Below are positions 4,776 to 16,315 of a DNA stretch of 37,297 nt, in pieces. Location: contig JAPPLM010000069.1 in NCBI GenBank assembly GCA_028874195.1, positions 1 through 37,297 of the forward strand, written 5' to 3'. A model generated the notes under the pieces. The model saw only the letters and a list, made by a program, of their open reading frames with translations, had not been told where the DNA came from and made no database searches. Source of the DNA: Chloroflexota bacterium. GTDB taxonomy: Bacteria; Chloroflexota; UBA11872; VXOZ01. Both the position numbers and the translations under genes were made by a program. Within the stretch, counting starts at the first letter, position 1. The number at the start of each line of letters is the position of its first letter.

Positions 4776-4815
4776 GAAACCGTCTTACTGGTGCGAATTG
4801 TTAAGCGCCACTAGG

Positions 4816-4908
4816 GCCGCTGGGGGAGCCTCTATGGCTGAGAGCCTCTGTGTGAGCAGCGGCAACCCTTGGAACCTGAACTGGATCATGCCAGCGGAGG
4901 GAAGCGGC
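4816..4908 (+). promoter_or_regulatory. TPP riboswitch (THI element)
   Basis: All the hallmarks of the thiamine pyrophosphate aptamer are present in order: GGGGGAGCC, GGCTGAGA, AACCCTTGGAACCTGAACTG, GATCATGCCAGCG and AGGGA. The P1 stem is formed by GCCGCT (4816-4821) and AGCGGC (4903-4908), a perfect 6-bp match. It stands directly before thiG, so it is expected to turn the operon off when TPP is plentiful. The linked terminator is listed separately. Confidence 0.97.
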
Positions 4909-4931
4909 AAGACTCCGAGACCTTGCTGCCA

Positions 4932-6906: not shown

Positions 6907-8022
6907 ATGTCCCTGACCACCGAGGTCGCCATCGTTGGCGGCGGCATCATCGGCTGCGCGCTCGCCTACACCCTGGCGAAAGACGGTGCGCGGGTAGCCG
7001 TTTTCGAGAAAGAGCGCGTCGGCGGCCAGGCGCGCATCGCCGCAGCCGGCATCCTGGGCTCCGGTGTGGAGAGCGACGGGAGAGACACGTTTCCCAGTCT
7101 GTCCGCGCAATCGGCCCGTCTTTACCCCGACTTTGCGGCCGAACTCGAAGCCGCCACCGGCCTGGACGCCACCTACACGCGTTCCGGCGCGCTCACCATC
7201 GTATTTGGCGAAACCCAAGCCATGTTCCTCGAACACCAGGCCGGCGTGCTCGCCGCCGAGGGAAGGCGCGTGGCCTGGCTCGAACCCGACGCCCTGCAAG
7301 CGACCGAACCATTGCTCTCCACCAAGGCGCGCGGCGCGCTCTTCTTCCAAGACGACGCTCACGTCTACGCGCCGCAACTCATGCACGTGCTCACGCTGGC
7401 AGCCGTTGCCCAAGGTGTGACGATACACGAATACACGCCTGTGCATGGCTTCCTCACCACCGGCGAACGGGTTACCGGCCTCCAAACGGCTGCGGGTCCT
7501 GTGCATGCCGATACCGTCGTCATCGCGGCCGGCGCCTGGAGCCGCCTGCTCGGCGACCACATCGGCATCTCCCTACCATTGAAACCAACCCGCGGCCAGG
7601 TCATGGTGCTGGAAACCTATGACCGCCCCCTACGGCGCGTCGTCTTTGGCGCGGGCGGCTATCTGGCGCCCAAGCAAGACGGTCGCATCGTCGTGGGCGC
7701 TACGGAAGAAGACGCGGGCTTCGAACGCGAGAATACGGCCGGCGGCGTGGCCTTCCTCGTCAAGATACTGCAACGGCTTGCCCTCAGCCTGGCCGACACG
7801 CGCGTCCACCACTTCGGCGTCGGGTTGCGGCCCACGCCGCCCGACGGACTGCCGTTGCTGGGGCCGGTCGCGGGCCGGCCGGGACTCTGGATCGCCGCCG
7901 GCCACCACCGCAACGGCATCCTGCTCGCGCCCATCACGGCTCACCTCATGTCCAACGCCATCCGCAAGGGCGACCTGGCGCCGCTGCAACCCTACGCTCC
8001 CGAGCGCTTTGCCGCGCCGTGA
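6907..8022 (+). CDS. thiO: Glycine oxidase ThiO (FAD-dependent, DAO family)
   Basis: Oxidises glycine to iminoglycine, the nitrogen donor for thiazole formation by ThiG. The 371-aa protein starts with a dinucleotide-binding motif (VGGGIIGCALAYTLA, residues 10-24) and the acidic end of strand 2 (VFEKE). It has the DAO-family C-terminal block GLRPTPPDGLPLLGP followed by LWIAAGHHRNGILLAP, which contacts FAD and the substrate carboxylate. The length matches known ThiO proteins. It lies 38 bp after thiS in the same direction and completes a thiG-thiE-thiS-thiO order. Use of ThiO rather than the radical enzyme ThiH fits an oxygen-using organism. Confidence 0.9.
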   Translation: MSLTTEVAIVGGGIIGCALAYTLAKDGARVAVFEKERVGGQARIAAAGILGSGVESDGRDTFPSLSAQSARLYPDFAAELEAATGLDATYTRSGALTIVFGETQAMFLEHQAGVLAAEGRRVAWLEPDALQATEPLLSTKARGALFFQDDAHVYAPQLMHVLTLAAVAQGVTIHEYTPVHGFLTTGERVTGLQTAAGPVHADTVVIAAGAWSRLLGDHIGISLPLKPTRGQVMVLETYDRPLRRVVFGAGGYLAPKQDGRIVVGATEEDAGFERENTAGGVAFLVKILQRLALSLADTRVHHFGVGLRPTPPDGLPLLGPVAGRPGLWIAAGHHRNGILLAPITAHLMSNAIRKGDLAPLQPYAPERFAAP

Positions 8023-9262: not shown

Positions 9263-9860
9263 ATTGGCTTGCCCCGGACCTGGGACCTTTGCGCGGCCCT
9301 CGCCAAAGCGAGATACTCCCCTCCCTTTGGAGAGAATGCTAGAACCTGCCCCCGTGCGCCGGATACACAGTATCGGATGGTACGGGGGTGAGGGGAATTC
9401 TTGCGTATCCGCGCGGTCCGCATTCACACCAATTTTCGCCGGTGGGAATTAGTAGTTTTGGCTTGGGGTGGCCAGAGGTGAGGCACGTGATCGTCCCTAG
9501 GTCTGCGCCAACTCTCATTTGTCATTCTGAGGAGCCCTTCGGCAAGCTCAGGATGAACTCCGCGACAAAGAATCTGGAATCGGGAGCTTTTTGGATTCCG
9601 CGAACATCGCTCGACGCTGCGCTCGGAATTGTAAGTGTTGACTAATTCCCTCGCCGGTAGCGCTTGCACTCGTTCTAACGGTTTGATACACTATACGTCA
9701 GGCTGACAGGCGTATGCCTGTGCTGCTCTGCGCAGCGCGGGTGCGAGAAAAGGTCGGTTGGCCATATCCGAGGTAATGTACTGTGTTGCCGGCGGTCGGG
9801 TCGGAGATCAGCACCCAAGTCTGCGGTCTGGGCGGCGCGGCGTTTGGCCGCACGTGCCCC
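9263..9860. other. Non-coding region upstream of the tandem secreted-protein genes
   Basis: No credible gene is seen. It holds a dispersed repeat at 9522-9600, the motif GGAATTGTAAGTGT at 9626-9639 (also at 37247-37260), and from about 9750 a sequence loosely homologous to the region in front of the second tandem gene (11990-12117). That similarity includes a diverged version of the 58-nt element at about 9787-9841. Confidence 0.5.
9522..9600. repeat. Dispersed repeat (TCATTCTGAG family)
   Basis: TCATTCTGAGGAGCCCTTCG followed by GCAAGCTCAGGATGAA and AAGAATCTGGAATC forms an imperfect inverted repeat. A related piece (TGTCACTCCGAGCGCAGCG, then GAATCT) lies at 19936-19965. Confidence 0.45.
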
Positions 9861-9888
9861 TTGCATTGCGCGGGCGGTCTGGTACACT
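9861..9888 (+). promoter_or_regulatory. Promoter of the first tandem secreted-protein gene
   Basis: TTGCAT (9861-9866), 16 bp, TACACT (9883-9888). The same TTGCxx/TACACT pair stands before all three tandem genes, and in each the last base of the -10 is exactly 305 nt before the first base of the GTG start. That conservation supports it as a true promoter. Confidence 0.65.
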
Positions 9889-9933
9889 GCTAAGGAAGCT
9901 GGCAGAGCGCGCGTCCATGGTGCGGAACACCGC

Positions 9934-10192
9934 GGGCGCGGAGCGAAGTCAGCCGGTTGTGTTTCGTATCAACATACCGTGCTATTGGCGTCAACGGTCA
10001 GGTCAGCAATGATCACCCTGGTCTGCCACCTGGGGAGTGTGACGTACACCCACGATTTCCCCTCAGCGCGGGATAGTCATTTAAGAAGGGAGAGTATGCA
10101 TGCACGCGCCGGAATAGCCCGGTATTGGGTGTCTATTTGAGATTTCGACTTCTGCTTCTGTGAAGCAGACGTTCTAGTGAAAGGAAAGGAAT
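9934..10192 (+). ncRNA. Conserved structured leader, copy 1
   Basis: This part of the 5' untranslated RNA is identical to 12192-12450 and clearly homologous to 14380-14652. Visible helices include AGCCGGT with ACCGtGCT (9951-9957 and 9976-9983), TCAGGT with ACCTGG (9998-10003 and 10028-10033), and TCTGCTTC-TGT-GAAGCAGA (10151-10169) just before the ribosome site AAGGAAAGGA. Against the third copy, helix 1 shows a G-C to A-U swap and helix 2 a G-U to G-C swap, both keeping pairing. I cannot match it to a known riboswitch class. It is a candidate cis-regulatory RNA. Confidence 0.55.
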
Positions 10193-11776
10193 GTGAGACC
10201 TTTGTCTCGTTTCTTGAGCGTGTTCCTAGCACTCGTATTGTTGGCCACCAGCTTCCTCGTGGCGTCGGCGCACACTGGTGATCCCACCGCGAAGATCACG
10301 ATCGCCCGTGTGGATACCGCGAGTGACGTGCACGTCGGCACGAAGCTGAAGTTCCTCGTCATCGTCGAGCGGGGCGGCCATGATCTCCTCAACACGATTG
10401 TGATTCGCAGCGTGCATCGTCAGGATGATGATGAAGCACCTACGAACGCATTTGATAACGATACGTTTAGCGCTCCGGGTGTGAACCTAGGCACGGCCTC
10501 GGGAGTCGCAGCGGGTACTGGCGCGGAGGGTGCCTTTCAAGCTACTGATCCTGCGCTAACTACTGCCAACCCCGTCGGGACCATTGCCGAGTTCACGTAT
10601 ACGGTTCTGTCTGGAGAATTGGGCAGCGCGAAGCAGCGCAATATCCCCGTTCAGTTTGAGCTCGTTATCATTGGCGGTCTTGATGCTGGCGGCGACAACC
10701 CTCATGCGATCAATGCTGACTCTACCGGTGATGGAGATAACGACGCCCTTGTGATCAAGAGCAACACCGTCAACGTACTCGTGACCAAGGATCCGGGCAC
10801 CGGTGACGGCGCTTCGCAAGTGACGTTGAACGTCTCCATGGCCCGGCCTGACGAGATCGCCGCGGGCGAGAAGGTCAAGTTCACGGTGAGCACGGAGACC
10901 GGCAAGTATGGGTTTGGCCCGAAGCCGCTCATCATCAGCAAGCAGTTGTACGACGACGATGGTGACAAGGACGGCGGGATGGTTGCCGTGGCGGTGTTCA
11001 CTTTGGCGGATCTGCAGAGCAACTCTGTGAGCGCCGAGGCTTCCAAGGAATACACGCTGGTGCAGGATGACATCGATGCCTCGAAGGTCGAGTTCTCCTA
11101 CGCCCTCGAAATCGCGGCTGCCGACCTGGATGGCGAACCTGCCAACTATGCCACTGACAAGACCCAGAAGGGCACCTTCAACCTGGCGCCTCCGGCTCCT
11201 GTGGCCACGCCGAGCCCGTATCTCTACATGACTGATGCGGCGAAGGTGGAGGAAATCGGTGGCGGCACCGCCATCGTGGTCACCCGGTTGGATACCATGA
11301 CGACCACCACCCTGACGCTTGGCACGCTCAGCGGCGGCGGCGCGCTCTTGCCGCGTGACAGCGGCTACATCCGCGACGAGAGCCGCGGCCAGACCTATGC
11401 CGTGGTGCGGCGCGCGTCTGACAACATGGTTGTGCGTGTGTGGATCTCCTCCAATAGCGAGTGGGTGCCCCACGTGCCCTGGGCCAATGTCATAGCGTTC
11501 TACAACGTGCCGGCAGCAGTCTTGAACGCCATTCCGTTGGACGATTCCATGCCGGAAGTCGACCAACTGGTTGACGTGGGTGGCGACTACTACGTGTACA
11601 GGGATAGGGCGTGGCGCCATATCCCCAACCTCTCCACGTTCCGGGCGGAAGGCTTCTACTGGTGCGACTTGACGACCGCGCACTCAGGCCACGCAGCGGC
11701 ATCGTCAACAGCGACGCCTCTCCCGTCCAAGGTAGGGCCCCCAACCGAGGGCTATCCGGCGTGCCGGGGGATGTAG
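10193..11776 (+). CDS. Secreted tandem-family protein, copy 1 (unknown function)
   Basis: A 527-aa exported protein of unknown function. A signal peptide (MRPLSRF, a hydrophobic core, then VASA at 23-26) suggests cleavage before HTGDP. Two beta-rich, Ig-like segments follow at about 32-195 and 205-335. A Pro-rich linker near 338-350 leads to a C-terminal domain with GYIRDESRGQTYAVVRR and a closing motif, RAWRHIPNLSTFRAEGFYWC. This IP..TF..eGF.W pattern recalls short repeats of bacterial surface proteins. The only two cysteines (YWCD and YPACR) may form a disulfide. The start is GTG after AAGGAAAGGA; the ATG two bases earlier runs straight into TGA. It is identical to the gene at 12451 and related to the one at 14653. 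There is no membrane anchor, so it is probably secreted or wall-associated. Confidence 0.75.
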   Translation: MRPLSRFLSVFLALVLLATSFLVASAHTGDPTAKITIARVDTASDVHVGTKLKFLVIVERGGHDLLNTIVIRSVHRQDDDEAPTNAFDNDTFSAPGVNLGTASGVAAGTGAEGAFQATDPALTTANPVGTIAEFTYTVLSGELGSAKQRNIPVQFELVIIGGLDAGGDNPHAINADSTGDGDNDALVIKSNTVNVLVTKDPGTGDGASQVTLNVSMARPDEIAAGEKVKFTVSTETGKYGFGPKPLIISKQLYDDDGDKDGGMVAVAVFTLADLQSNSVSAEASKEYTLVQDDIDASKVEFSYALEIAAADLDGEPANYATDKTQKGTFNLAPPAPVATPSPYLYMTDAAKVEEIGGGTAIVVTRLDTMTTTTLTLGTLSGGGALLPRDSGYIRDESRGQTYAVVRRASDNMVVRVWISSNSEWVPHVPWANVIAFYNVPAAVLNAIPLDDSMPEVDQLVDVGGDYYVYRDRAWRHIPNLSTFRAEGFYWCDLTTAHSGHAAASSTATPLPSKVGPPTEGYPACRGM

Positions 11777-11916
11777 TCGCGGAGTAAAGATGCATTGAAG
11801 CTGTATGGGCGATCACAATGTCACACATCAGTGTTATCAGTGACCGGGAAGGCAACAGCGTGATGACCGCGCGCTAGCGGACCCGGGGGTCTGTACAGTC
11901 TCCTTATGCTACGGCG

Positions 11917-11955
11917 AGAGCCGGTGTCTGTGGCAGGACACCGGCTCTTGTGTTT
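11917..11955 (+). terminator. Intrinsic terminator, tandem gene 1
   Basis: AGAGCCGGTGTC (11917-11928) pairs perfectly with GACACCGGCTCT (11937-11948) across an 8-nt loop, followed by TGTGTTT. It is inside the repeated unit. Confidence 0.85.
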
Positions 11956-12042
11956 AACTTGAGCGCGGCGCCGCCGGCCCAGATGCCCTATCCCTGGGGG
12001 GAAGGTTGGTTGGCTCTGACCCTGGCAGTAAGCGATGCCAGA

Positions 12043-12100
12043 GGCGTCAACGGTCCGGGCGGAGAGGATCACCCTAGGCTCCATGCCGGGCGGTTTGACG
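12043..12100 (+). repeat. 58-nt element upstream of promoter 2
   Basis: This 58-nt stretch aligns without gaps to 12245-12302, inside the leader of the same gene, with 42 identical positions by my count, including the first 13 (GGCGTCAACGGTC), GATCACCCT and the final TGACG. It lies just upstream of the promoter, so it is found once on each side of the start point. Its role is unknown. Confidence 0.5.
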
Positions 12101-12117
12101 TTTTTCGTGTCTGCCTC

Positions 12118-12146
12118 TTGCACTGCCTGAGGCGGATTGTTACACT
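12118..12146 (+). promoter_or_regulatory. Promoter of the second tandem secreted-protein gene
   Basis: TTGCAC (12118-12123), 17 bp, TACACT (12141-12146). It lies outside the identical repeat, in sequence that differs from promoter 1, yet keeps the same two boxes and the same 305-nt distance to the GTG start. Confidence 0.65.
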
Positions 12147-12191
12147 GTAGGGCAGGCTGGCGTGCGCGCGCCCGTGATTAAGAGACGCCGT

Positions 12192-12450
12192 GGGCGCGGA
12201 GCGAAGTCAGCCGGTTGTGTTTCGTATCAACATACCGTGCTATTGGCGTCAACGGTCAGGTCAGCAATGATCACCCTGGTCTGCCACCTGGGGAGTGTGA
12301 CGTACACCCACGATTTCCCCTCAGCGCGGGATAGTCATTTAAGAAGGGAGAGTATGCATGCACGCGCCGGAATAGCCCGGTATTGGGTGTCTATTTGAGA
12401 TTTCGACTTCTGCTTCTGTGAAGCAGACGTTCTAGTGAAAGGAAAGGAAT
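12192..12450 (+). ncRNA. Conserved structured leader, copy 2
   Basis: Identical to the leader at 9934-10192, with the same helices (for example TCTGCTTC-TGT-GAAGCAGA at 12409-12427). It contains a second version of the 58-nt element (12245-12302). Confidence 0.55.
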
Positions 12451-14034
12451 GTGAGACCTTTGTCTCGTTTCTTGAGCGTGTTCCTAGCACTCGTATTGTT
12501 GGCCACCAGCTTCCTCGTGGCGTCGGCGCACACTGGTGATCCCACCGCGAAGATCACGATCGCCCGTGTGGATACCGCGAGTGACGTGCACGTCGGCACG
12601 AAGCTGAAGTTCCTCGTCATCGTCGAGCGGGGCGGCCATGATCTCCTCAACACGATTGTGATTCGCAGCGTGCATCGTCAGGATGATGATGAAGCACCTA
12701 CGAACGCATTTGATAACGATACGTTTAGCGCTCCGGGTGTGAACCTAGGCACGGCCTCGGGAGTCGCAGCGGGTACTGGCGCGGAGGGTGCCTTTCAAGC
12801 TACTGATCCTGCGCTAACTACTGCCAACCCCGTCGGGACCATTGCCGAGTTCACGTATACGGTTCTGTCTGGAGAATTGGGCAGCGCGAAGCAGCGCAAT
12901 ATCCCCGTTCAGTTTGAGCTCGTTATCATTGGCGGTCTTGATGCTGGCGGCGACAACCCTCATGCGATCAATGCTGACTCTACCGGTGATGGAGATAACG
13001 ACGCCCTTGTGATCAAGAGCAACACCGTCAACGTACTCGTGACCAAGGATCCGGGCACCGGTGACGGCGCTTCGCAAGTGACGTTGAACGTCTCCATGGC
13101 CCGGCCTGACGAGATCGCCGCGGGCGAGAAGGTCAAGTTCACGGTGAGCACGGAGACCGGCAAGTATGGGTTTGGCCCGAAGCCGCTCATCATCAGCAAG
13201 CAGTTGTACGACGACGATGGTGACAAGGACGGCGGGATGGTTGCCGTGGCGGTGTTCACTTTGGCGGATCTGCAGAGCAACTCTGTGAGCGCCGAGGCTT
13301 CCAAGGAATACACGCTGGTGCAGGATGACATCGATGCCTCGAAGGTCGAGTTCTCCTACGCCCTCGAAATCGCGGCTGCCGACCTGGATGGCGAACCTGC
13401 CAACTATGCCACTGACAAGACCCAGAAGGGCACCTTCAACCTGGCGCCTCCGGCTCCTGTGGCCACGCCGAGCCCGTATCTCTACATGACTGATGCGGCG
13501 AAGGTGGAGGAAATCGGTGGCGGCACCGCCATCGTGGTCACCCGGTTGGATACCATGACGACCACCACCCTGACGCTTGGCACGCTCAGCGGCGGCGGCG
13601 CGCTCTTGCCGCGTGACAGCGGCTACATCCGCGACGAGAGCCGCGGCCAGACCTATGCCGTGGTGCGGCGCGCGTCTGACAACATGGTTGTGCGTGTGTG
13701 GATCTCCTCCAATAGCGAGTGGGTGCCCCACGTGCCCTGGGCCAATGTCATAGCGTTCTACAACGTGCCGGCAGCAGTCTTGAACGCCATTCCGTTGGAC
13801 GATTCCATGCCGGAAGTCGACCAACTGGTTGACGTGGGTGGCGACTACTACGTGTACAGGGATAGGGCGTGGCGCCATATCCCCAACCTCTCCACGTTCC
13901 GGGCGGAAGGCTTCTACTGGTGCGACTTGACGACCGCGCACTCAGGCCACGCAGCGGCATCGTCAACAGCGACGCCTCTCCCGTCCAAGGTAGGGCCCCC
14001 AACCGAGGGCTATCCGGCGTGCCGGGGGATGTAG
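12451..14034 (+). CDS. Secreted tandem-family protein, copy 2 (unknown function)
   Basis: The 527-aa product is identical to that of the gene at 10193, down to silent positions: signal peptide to residue 26, two Ig-like segments, a Pro-rich linker and a C-terminal IP..TF..eGFYWC domain with the only two cysteines. It starts at GTG behind AAGGAAAGGA. It has its own promoter outside the repeat (12118-12146), so both copies can be expressed and may differ in strength. Two identical genes may give higher dosage or act as a reservoir for recombination with the diverged third copy. No enzymatic motif is visible. Confidence 0.75.
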   Translation: MRPLSRFLSVFLALVLLATSFLVASAHTGDPTAKITIARVDTASDVHVGTKLKFLVIVERGGHDLLNTIVIRSVHRQDDDEAPTNAFDNDTFSAPGVNLGTASGVAAGTGAEGAFQATDPALTTANPVGTIAEFTYTVLSGELGSAKQRNIPVQFELVIIGGLDAGGDNPHAINADSTGDGDNDALVIKSNTVNVLVTKDPGTGDGASQVTLNVSMARPDEIAAGEKVKFTVSTETGKYGFGPKPLIISKQLYDDDGDKDGGMVAVAVFTLADLQSNSVSAEASKEYTLVQDDIDASKVEFSYALEIAAADLDGEPANYATDKTQKGTFNLAPPAPVATPSPYLYMTDAAKVEEIGGGTAIVVTRLDTMTTTTLTLGTLSGGGALLPRDSGYIRDESRGQTYAVVRRASDNMVVRVWISSNSEWVPHVPWANVIAFYNVPAAVLNAIPLDDSMPEVDQLVDVGGDYYVYRDRAWRHIPNLSTFRAEGFYWCDLTTAHSGHAAASSTATPLPSKVGPPTEGYPACRGM

Positions 14035-14174
14035 TCGCGGAGTAAAGATGCATTGAAGCTGTATGGGCGATCACAATGTCACACATCAGTGTTATCAGTG
14101 ACCGGGAAGGCAACAGCGTGATGACCGCGCGCTAGCGGACCCGGGGGTCTGTACAGTCTCCTTATGCTACGGCG

Positions 14175-14213
14175 AGAGCCGGTGTCTGTGGCAGGACACC
14201 GGCTCTTGTGTTT
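14175..14213 (+). terminator. Intrinsic terminator, tandem gene 2
   Basis: Same 12-bp stem (AGAGCCGGTGTC and its complement) and T-rich tail as at 11917-11955, being part of the repeat unit. Confidence 0.85.
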
Positions 14214-14240
14214 AATGTTTAAGCAACTCTCGCAAATCCG

Positions 14241-14280
14241 GTCCCCTCACCCCGGCCCGCTCCCAGCGGGAGAGGGAGCG
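14241..14280. repeat. Dispersed repeat (TCCCCTCACCCCGGCC type)
   Basis: GTCCCCTCACCCCGGCCCGC followed by TCCCAGCGGGAGAGGGAGCG contains CGCTCCC opposite GGGAGcGg-type arms. It resembles short interspersed repeats common in bacterial genomes. It lies only upstream of the third tandem gene. Confidence 0.45.
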
Positions 14281-14319
14281 GAAGGCGGAGGTGGGCGCTT
14301 GTTGCGGCGTGCGAATCTC

Positions 14320-14348
14320 TTGCGGCGCGGGCGGTGGTCTGCTACACT
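14320..14348 (+). promoter_or_regulatory. Promoter of the third tandem secreted-protein gene
   Basis: TTGCGG (14320-14325), 17 bp, TACACT (14343-14348). The -10 again ends exactly 305 nt before the GTG start, although the leader between them has small insertions and deletions compared with the other two copies. Confidence 0.65.
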
Positions 14349-14379
14349 TTTAACCAAGACTGGCGAAGGTACGCCCGCG

Positions 14380-14652
14380 CTGCCGGATACCGTGGGGGCA
14401 CAAAGAGGTCAGTAATATGTATTGTGTATCAACGTACTGCGCTCTTGGCGTCACCTGCCAGGTCAGCAACGATCCCCCTGGTCTACTACCTGGAGACTGT
14501 GAGGTTACTCACGATTCCGCCTCGGCGCGGGATAATCACCACTGAAGGGAGTGTGTTCACGCATGCGACGGGATAGCCCGGAATTAGGTGTCTCTTCCAA
14601 GTTTTTGTCTTCTGCTTCACGGAAGCAGACGTTCTAGTGAAAGGAAAGGACT
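14380..14652 (+). ncRNA. Conserved structured leader, copy 3 (diverged)
   Basis: Homologous to leaders 1 and 2 but with many substitutions. Helices are kept: CAGTA with TACTG (14410-14414 and 14435-14439), CCAGGT with ACCTGG (14458-14463 and 14488-14493), GTGAG-GTTA-CTCAC, and TCTGCTTC-ACG-GAAGCAGA (14611-14629), where the loop changed but the stem did not. The 58-nt element lies at 14447-14504. Confidence 0.55.
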
Positions 14653-16191
14653 GTGAGACCCTTGTCTCGTTTGTTTAGCGTCTTGCTGACGCTTATGCTG
14701 TTGAGCGTCTCGCTGCTAACGGTGTCCGCGCATGCTAGCACTGCTCACACTGAAACCAATCCAACGTACGGCGCCAGGGTGGTACTCACCCGTAATGACA
14801 GCAAGGACCCCGTACACCCCGGTACGCTATTGACGTTTAGTGTCTATGTGCAGCGTGGAAGCCAACATGGCATCCCCAGTACCGCTACACTTACGAGCCC
14901 TGGCAGTGCTTCAACGACAATCGGCGCAGCTCTTGTCGTCGGTGGCAGGGAAGCAATAACGAAGGAAATCGAGTATACCGTTCAGCCCTCTGACCTGGGC
15001 GGCGGGATACGGCGGGCTGCGCCTATCAGGTTCACGCTCACGTTCGAGCCGGTAGACACGGACGGCCGTAGTCTCTACGCAGATACTCACCCTGAAGCCG
15101 TCGTCATGAGCAACGAGTATCCTGTCATCATCACCAAGAAGAGTGAAGCCTCGAGTGGCGATGGCTCTGCCGAGGTGGAGATAGTCTTCAGTGTGGAGGA
15201 GCCGGATGTAATCGCCGAGGGTGAAAATGTCAAGTTCACTGTGTCGGCGGTCACCGGCAAATATGCGCTGGTGACCAAGCCGCTTATCGTTCGTAAGCGC
15301 TGGTATGACGAGAACGGCGAAAGGACCGGCCCTACAACTCACGCTCGAACAGTCATCATTCGGTATCTCGACACGAACGCAGTGAGTCCAGAGTATACGG
15401 CGACCTACGTCTTGACTGAAAGGGACGCTGATGCGGCGACGATCGAGTTCTTCTATGAGTTGACAATCGAGGATACCGACCTGAGAAATGCTGACGGTAC
15501 GTCAACCGATCTTGACGAAGACTATGAAGAGACCTTCAGGGGTTCCCACATTGTCGGTCAGAGGTTAGTGTCCGCGACACCAACACCGAGACCGACGCCT
15601 GCGGTAAGAATTGTCGGGAACACGAGCGCGGCGACGGTTACGGAGAGGGGAACCGACTACGTTCACGTTGACCGGCATGACGGAGGGCGAGACTTCATTT
15701 TGACACTCGGTTACCTTGCGCCCAACGGCGGCCGCGGCTTCAATCCGCGCGGCTACATCCGCGACGACGATTTGGCCCGGGGCGGCCAGACCTACGCCGT
15801 GGTGCGGCGCGAATCCGACAACAAGGTGGTGCGCATGTGGGTCTCCCCCGAAAGCCCCGAGCGGTTCCAGGTGCCGTGGGAAACTGTAAATCTGCCGCCC
15901 TACACGGTCCCGGTGAGCGTCTTGAGCACCATCCCCTTGGATGAAACGCGTCCGGTGGAGAACCAACTGGCGCGCCGCTTCGACGCCGGCAGCGATGGAC
16001 GCATCTACGTGTACCGGAACAACGCGTGGCATTGGATCCCCGATATTCCCACGTTCAAGGCGGAGGGCTTTTACTGGTGCGACGTGACCGCGGCCGACGT
16101 CGGTTTCTTCCGCCGCGCCAATATCGGAACCGCGTTGCCCAGGAGCGGCACTGCGGACGACCCGAACTATCCGGATTGCCACTCCAAATAG
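14653..16191 (+). CDS. Secreted tandem-family protein, copy 3 (diverged paralogue, unknown function)
   Basis: A 512-aa paralogue of the two preceding genes. The signal peptide begins with the same MRPLSR and ends in TVSA at 23-26. The middle part keeps the two Ig-like segments but is strongly diverged. Best-preserved stretches are KFTVSAVTGKYALVTKPLI and the C-terminal domain: GYIRDD, GGQTYAVVRRESDNKVVRMW, then NAWHWIPDIPTFKAEGFYWC. Again only two cysteines are present, in YWCD and YPDCH. The start is GTG behind AAGGAAAGGA. The higher conservation of the C-terminal domain suggests it does the shared job, while the Ig-like part may face different partners (inference). No anchor or enzyme motif is seen. 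Confidence 0.75.
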   Translation: MRPLSRLFSVLLTLMLLSVSLLTVSAHASTAHTETNPTYGARVVLTRNDSKDPVHPGTLLTFSVYVQRGSQHGIPSTATLTSPGSASTTIGAALVVGGREAITKEIEYTVQPSDLGGGIRRAAPIRFTLTFEPVDTDGRSLYADTHPEAVVMSNEYPVIITKKSEASSGDGSAEVEIVFSVEEPDVIAEGENVKFTVSAVTGKYALVTKPLIVRKRWYDENGERTGPTTHARTVIIRYLDTNAVSPEYTATYVLTERDADAATIEFFYELTIEDTDLRNADGTSTDLDEDYEETFRGSHIVGQRLVSATPTPRPTPAVRIVGNTSAATVTERGTDYVHVDRHDGGRDFILTLGYLAPNGGRGFNPRGYIRDDDLARGGQTYAVVRRESDNKVVRMWVSPESPERFQVPWETVNLPPYTVPVSVLSTIPLDETRPVENQLARRFDAGSDGRIYVYRNNAWHWIPDIPTFKAEGFYWCDVTAADVGFFRRANIGTALPRSGTADDPNYPDCHSK

Positions 16192-16277
16192 TGCGCGCTG
16201 ACCGTGAGGGCGCTGTTTGACCGCCGCGCGCTAGCGGTCACGGGAGGCCCCGCACAGCCTCGCTGAACGACAGCAAG

Positions 16278-16315
16278 AGCCGGTGTCTGCTACAGACGCC
16301 GGCTCCTGTGTTTTT
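16278..16315 (+). terminator. Intrinsic terminator, tandem gene 3
   Basis: AGCCGGTGTCTG (16278-16289) pairs with CAGACGCCGGCT (16293-16304) across a CTA loop with one G-U pair, followed by CCTGTGTTTTT. It is clearly homologous to the terminators of copies 1 and 2. Confidence 0.85.

Follow-up and report, generated by a model that had tools for sequence, protein, structure and literature searches.

Tandem genes for putative surface proteins with constant ends and a variable middle in an uncultured Chloroflexota bacterium

In Porphyromonas gingivalis, gingipain and adhesin genes are mosaic surface genes that are diversified by allelic exchange (PMC5266723). The locus described here resembles them in that variable adhesin-like domains are set within conserved ends and the variation is at odds with the genome background – but the proteins are different, and the variation was seen between species of one genus rather than within one species. 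The rhs genes, in which C-terminal displacement likewise keeps a conserved part and replaces a variable one, provide a second parallel (PMC2935791); in Rhs, however, it is the C-terminal tip that varies, whereas the present proteins keep their C-terminus constant and vary in the middle. C-terminal sorting and anchoring domains (T9SS CTD, LPXTG, PEP-CTERM, SLH and CWB2) are also single modules that end many unrelated secreted proteins, yet the domain found here matches no such model, spans ~190 residues and carries a conserved cysteine pair. Eukaryotic-like proteins of sponge symbionts have LRR, FN3 and cadherin parts, as do members of the present family, and are likewise found in sponge-associated Chloroflexota; in the consulted sections of two studies of them (PMC6306507, PMC9531527) we found no description of the shared C-terminal domain.

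The locus lies on a contig of an uncultured Chloroflexota bacterium related to marine-sponge bacteria (GCA_028874195.1, contig JAPPLM010000069.1, positions 1 to 37,297; we call this 37,297-nucleotide stretch the window). At 9861-16315 we identified three repeated units, each with a promoter-like site, a ~300-nt leader, a GTG-initiated gene with a signal peptide and a strong terminator. Open reading frames, aligned leaders and stem folding bear out this arrangement, which a preliminary description had proposed with TTGCxx/TACACT promoters. The locus contains the following features:

9664-9692, forward strand: P0, an extra promoter-like site upstream of unit A
9748-9830, forward strand: diverged leader-like stretch between P0 and promoter A (aligned by eye; limits approximate)
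9861-9888, forward strand: promoter-like site of gene A (TTGCAT-N16-TACACT)
10193-11776, forward strand: gene A, 527 aa, with signal peptide, two Ig/FnIII-like domains and C-terminal domain (fold from paralogue C)
11914-11951, forward strand: terminator of A, 16-pair stem, folding z -6.2
12036-12101, forward strand: leader-like remnant upstream of promoter B, 71-73% identical to the leader
12118-12146, forward strand: promoter-like site of gene B
12451-14034, forward strand: gene B, GTG start, signal peptide, identical to A
14172-14209, forward strand: terminator of B, 16-pair stem, folding z -7.5
14320-14348, forward strand: promoter-like site of gene C
14349-14652, forward strand: leader of C, about 75% identical to the leaders of A and B, with no RNA-structure or coding signal
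14653-16191, forward strand: gene C, 512 aa, GTG start, signal peptide, 42% identity with A
16277-16305, forward strand: terminator of C, 13-pair stem, folding z -5.8

The terminator stems, first described as 12 bp, are real but slightly longer, at 16, 16 and 13 pairs. Similarly, the family has three units as described, but A equals B at the DNA level, leaving two sequence types rather than three. The promoter spacer of A measures 16 bp, one fewer than the 17 bp of B and C. The pattern TTGC-N18..19-TACACT occurs at four sites in the window against 0.13 expected by chance, a count reached in 0 of 100 shuffles. Because a consensus promoter scan of the window did not list the TTGCnn...TACACT sites, they rest on their mutual conservation within the locus and among relatives; a similar site at about the same upstream distance corresponds to P0 in two related genomes, G004 and G005. 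With one promoter-like site and one strong terminator each, the genes are predicted to form separate transcription units.

Two kinds of intergenic repeat, ATTCTGAGGAGC... and CCCTCACCCC...GGGAGAGGG, are present at 9500-9620 and 14240-14285, and the latter kind also occurs near family members in G004. Elsewhere in the window, a TPP riboswitch (4812-4919; Rfam, 68.5 bits) lies upstream of genes, among them one for a DAO-type oxidoreductase (6907-8022), that probably function in thiamine biosynthesis.

Signal peptides and two Ig/FnIII-like domains support the initial view of A, B and C as secreted proteins with an Ig-like part. An AF2 model of protein C shows beta-sandwich regions in two blocks ahead of the C-terminal domain (pLDDT mostly 75-90), in an arrangement that is uncertain at a pTM of 0.43. 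The best foldseek match of the variable part was RbmA of Vibrio cholerae (E 6e-7), which also has two tandem FnIII-like sandwiches but differs in its low TM-score, about 12% identity and lack of the C-terminal domain.

We compared the units across a genus of six genomes, three of which (G002, G004 and G005) encode same-type genes with the same leader. In G004 the neighbourhood of gene C is also conserved, with genes for a dehydrogenase, an S15 peptidase, a DUF6807 protein and a solute-binding protein. Among genes of one type, high conservation of the leader core and terminator contrasts with identities as low as about 35-65% in the Ig part. Between G004b and G005, identity per 100 nt is 93-99% over most of the leader (97% for the G004 and G005 leaders compared directly), drops to about 48-64% in the middle, recovers to 68-83% over the C-terminal domain and reaches 91-100% at the end. 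Synonymous divergence follows the same course: dS is 0.18 in the signal peptide, 1.81 in Ig1 (dN 0.51), 0.66 in Ig2 (dN 0.53) and 0.40 in the C-terminal domain (dN 0.20), against 0.19 and 0.28 in the two long neighbouring genes that make up the G004-G005 background, from which rows in antisense frames were excluded. For C and G004a, dS is 1.61 in Ig1 and 0.20 in the C-terminal domain, with neighbouring genes at 0.51-1.02 between G000 and G004; relative to that background, the C-terminal domain is lower and the middle equal or higher. Overall, Ig1 dS ranges from 1.4 to 2.0, an uncertain estimate like all dS and dN values for the Ig part, which come from alignments 30-50% identical, and C-terminal domain dS from 0.20 to 0.40 among closer orthologue pairs. 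At the level of sequence, the units are a constant-variable-constant mosaic across the genus. The earlier claim of stronger conservation in the ends than in the Ig part thus holds between species, but not for A and B, which are identical, and not clearly for A and C (40% identity in Ig2, 45% in the C-terminal domain).

An ordinary paralogous family could in principle look similar, if old duplications were followed by relaxed selection on the Ig part, or by diversifying selection acting through point mutation, without segment exchange. Ig-like domains often evolve fast, and the high dN of the Ig domains here (0.43-0.82) agrees with such a history. We nevertheless consider it doubtful: Ig1 synonymous divergence far exceeds that of the ends and of neighbouring genes, which protein-level selection alone does not yield, and the identity of A and B requires a recent transfer.

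The pattern of variation also includes indels over ~300 residues and does not suggest a diversity-generating retroelement. Cassette-based antigenic variation was considered and rejected, as a search of the bacterium's own genome matched only genes A, B and C and no silent promoterless cassettes. Family copies are few – three in the window and 1-5 in most carrier genomes – and this, together with the lack of silent cassettes, leaves active antigenic variation unsupported.

The identity of A and B extends well beyond the coding sequence:

9934-11957, forward strand: exact repeat copy 1, 2024 bp (most of the leader, gene A and its terminator)
12192-14215, forward strand: exact repeat copy 2, 2024 bp (gene B side)

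The copies share 100% DNA identity over 2024 bp, from 40-odd bases past the -10 site to just beyond the terminator, and their flanks differ on both sides. In the 170 bases before the -10 site, A and B are 61% identical, whereas B and its G004/G005 orthologues are 80% identical. Since the sequence upstream of promoter B matches relatives better than it matches that of A, the two copies probably predate the split of the species and were homogenised later. Inside the tract, A and B resemble each other more closely than the divergence of their older flanks would permit, as expected of gene conversion, although an assembly error could, with lower probability, also account for it. The family had been called expanding; this fits only in part, as A and B appear instead to be older copies homogenised by gene conversion, and the mosaic is the dominant pattern across species.

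G001 encodes two tandem LRR genes (L054, 5813-9945) whose LRR parts differ but which share 537 nt at 99.4% identity across the C-terminal domain – an independent case of a shared C-terminal-domain tract. In G005, downstream of a family gene, a contig ends within a leader stretch whose 55 bases are 100% identical to B's (C395:1-55, L096), and a further unit probably follows.

The A/B identity could instead be an assembly artefact, with one consensus standing for two similar genes or the unit duplicated by the assembler. Short reads resolve an exact 2-kb repeat poorly, and the G005 contig breaks within the repeated leader as short-read assemblies do. An artefact nonetheless seems rather improbable to us: the differing flanks imply two loci, the B flank is closer to related species than to the A flank, and the comparable tract in G001 comes from a genome in 9 contigs.

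The leader is kept at 83-97% identity among A-type genes. Such conservation could reflect a structured regulatory RNA or a small gene, and a small hairpin does precede the ribosome site in most, though not all, units. However, the leader matched no Rfam family, and its RNAalifold consensus fold was no better than column shuffles for the whole leader or its core (z -0.1 to -0.5), with z -2 for the 5' part (8/200 shuffles). We also found no coding signal, as substitutions are spread evenly over codon positions and frameshifting indels are present. We therefore regard either role as very unlikely; conservation of the leader may rather reflect DNA-level regulation or use as a recombination tract. 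Promoters A and B and the A-type orthologues are each preceded by a diverged leader-like stretch, which implies that promoter-leader pairs were duplicated.

All three proteins end in the same domain:

11210-11773, forward strand: C-terminal domain of A
13468-14031, forward strand: C-terminal domain of B
15604-16188, forward strand: C-terminal domain of C (predicted, pLDDT 92)

AF2 predicts a mostly beta structure with short helices (~190 residues, pLDDT 92.3, pTM 0.88). Pfam and NCBIfam scans gave no match (NCBIfam for A and C only), and neither sequence profiles (best E 0.35) nor foldseek (best EccB, E 0.034, TM 0.24) produced a significant match in the PDB; the weak fold matches, mainly EccB and beta-propellers, do not place the domain. 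It is thus an uncharacterised family, as initially proposed. Known C-terminal sorting or wall-binding families were rejected for want of a significant curated-model match (with NCBIfam again covering A and C). An LPXTG/sortase or PEP-CTERM type was also rejected, as the proteins end in YPxC plus a few residues, lack LPXTG and have no terminal hydrophobic helix in the AF2 model. Relatives in phages and viral contigs were not detected by sequence; foldseek against viral models returned short phage proteins of unknown function that cover part of the domain (best E 9e-4).

Of 41 genomes from one Chloroflexota class, 18 carry the domain by profile search, and its absence from the other 23 indicates that it is not essential. 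Among 301 genomes drawn from the phylum, matches fell within this class and none was detected outside it. The family thus extends beyond this locus, the C-terminal domain being found on many unrelated extracellular proteins. The parts ahead of it include LRR, FN3, cadherin, PKD/Big_9, subtilase (S8) with a P-domain, and PPDK_N. Named records with the domain are Chloroflexota MAGs. One carrier, AVDCRST_MAG77, is presumably from soil crust. The jk18x series records stem from work on tropical Ircinia sponges (PMC9531527).

Complete members end 0-1 residues past the domain profile; two clear exceptions extend 9 and 42 residues beyond it. As first described, the domain has exactly two cysteines in each of A, B and C; nearly all members carry them in WC and YPxC motifs, with the second cysteine close to the final residue. 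Where WR replaces WC (L055/L126 in G003; L053 in G001, C9 at 653 kb), the protein stops before the YPxC cysteine, and the joint absence of both cysteines in two members fits a disulfide. Profile match, terminal position and cysteine pair together delimit a class-restricted C-terminal domain family. Separately, small 118-residue ORFs in G007 (C11), G028 (C1) and G030 (C62) match the domain only over its final ~55 residues.

These observations suggest that the domain is most likely a surface-retention or export module behind varied extracellular parts. Alternatively, it might be the binding or catalytic part, acting on a sponge or microbial ligand, with the variable parts as stalks. This would suit the best-kept part of the protein, with its invariant R, W, D and other residues, but we find it unlikely: the domain is C-terminal whatever precedes it (subtilase, LRR arrays), as sorting and anchoring domains are, and foldseek against the PDB gave no enzyme-fold match.

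On balance, we think it somewhat probable that the locus encodes secreted surface proteins in which constant ends surround exchangeable adhesion or recognition modules diversified by recombination. Two fast-changing Ig/FnIII-like domains would be framed on the 5' side by a constant promoter, leader and signal peptide and on the 3' side by the constant C-terminal domain and terminator, and the class-restricted domain would retain widely differing extracellular parts at the cell surface or target them there. In the conserved ends, tandem copies and different strains would find the homology needed for recombination – which would homogenise whole genes, as A and B indicate in this assembly, and let middle parts be replaced, as the mosaic suggests. 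The variable part would probably serve adhesion to or recognition of host, neighbours or phages. More tentatively, the C-terminal domain could define an undescribed surface-display route of the class and the tandem locus a recombination device, with leader and domain as exchange handles for swapping symbiont recognition domains.

Sponge-associated Chloroflexota are abundant and uncultured, and little is known of how they display surface proteins. The C-terminal domain marks an extracellular protein set across the class, giving a sequence handle to list adhesins and recognition proteins. A fast-changing middle between constant ends suggests that the proteins serve recognition or adhesion and that their outward-facing part is reshuffled, and points to what host, phage or neighbours may select on.
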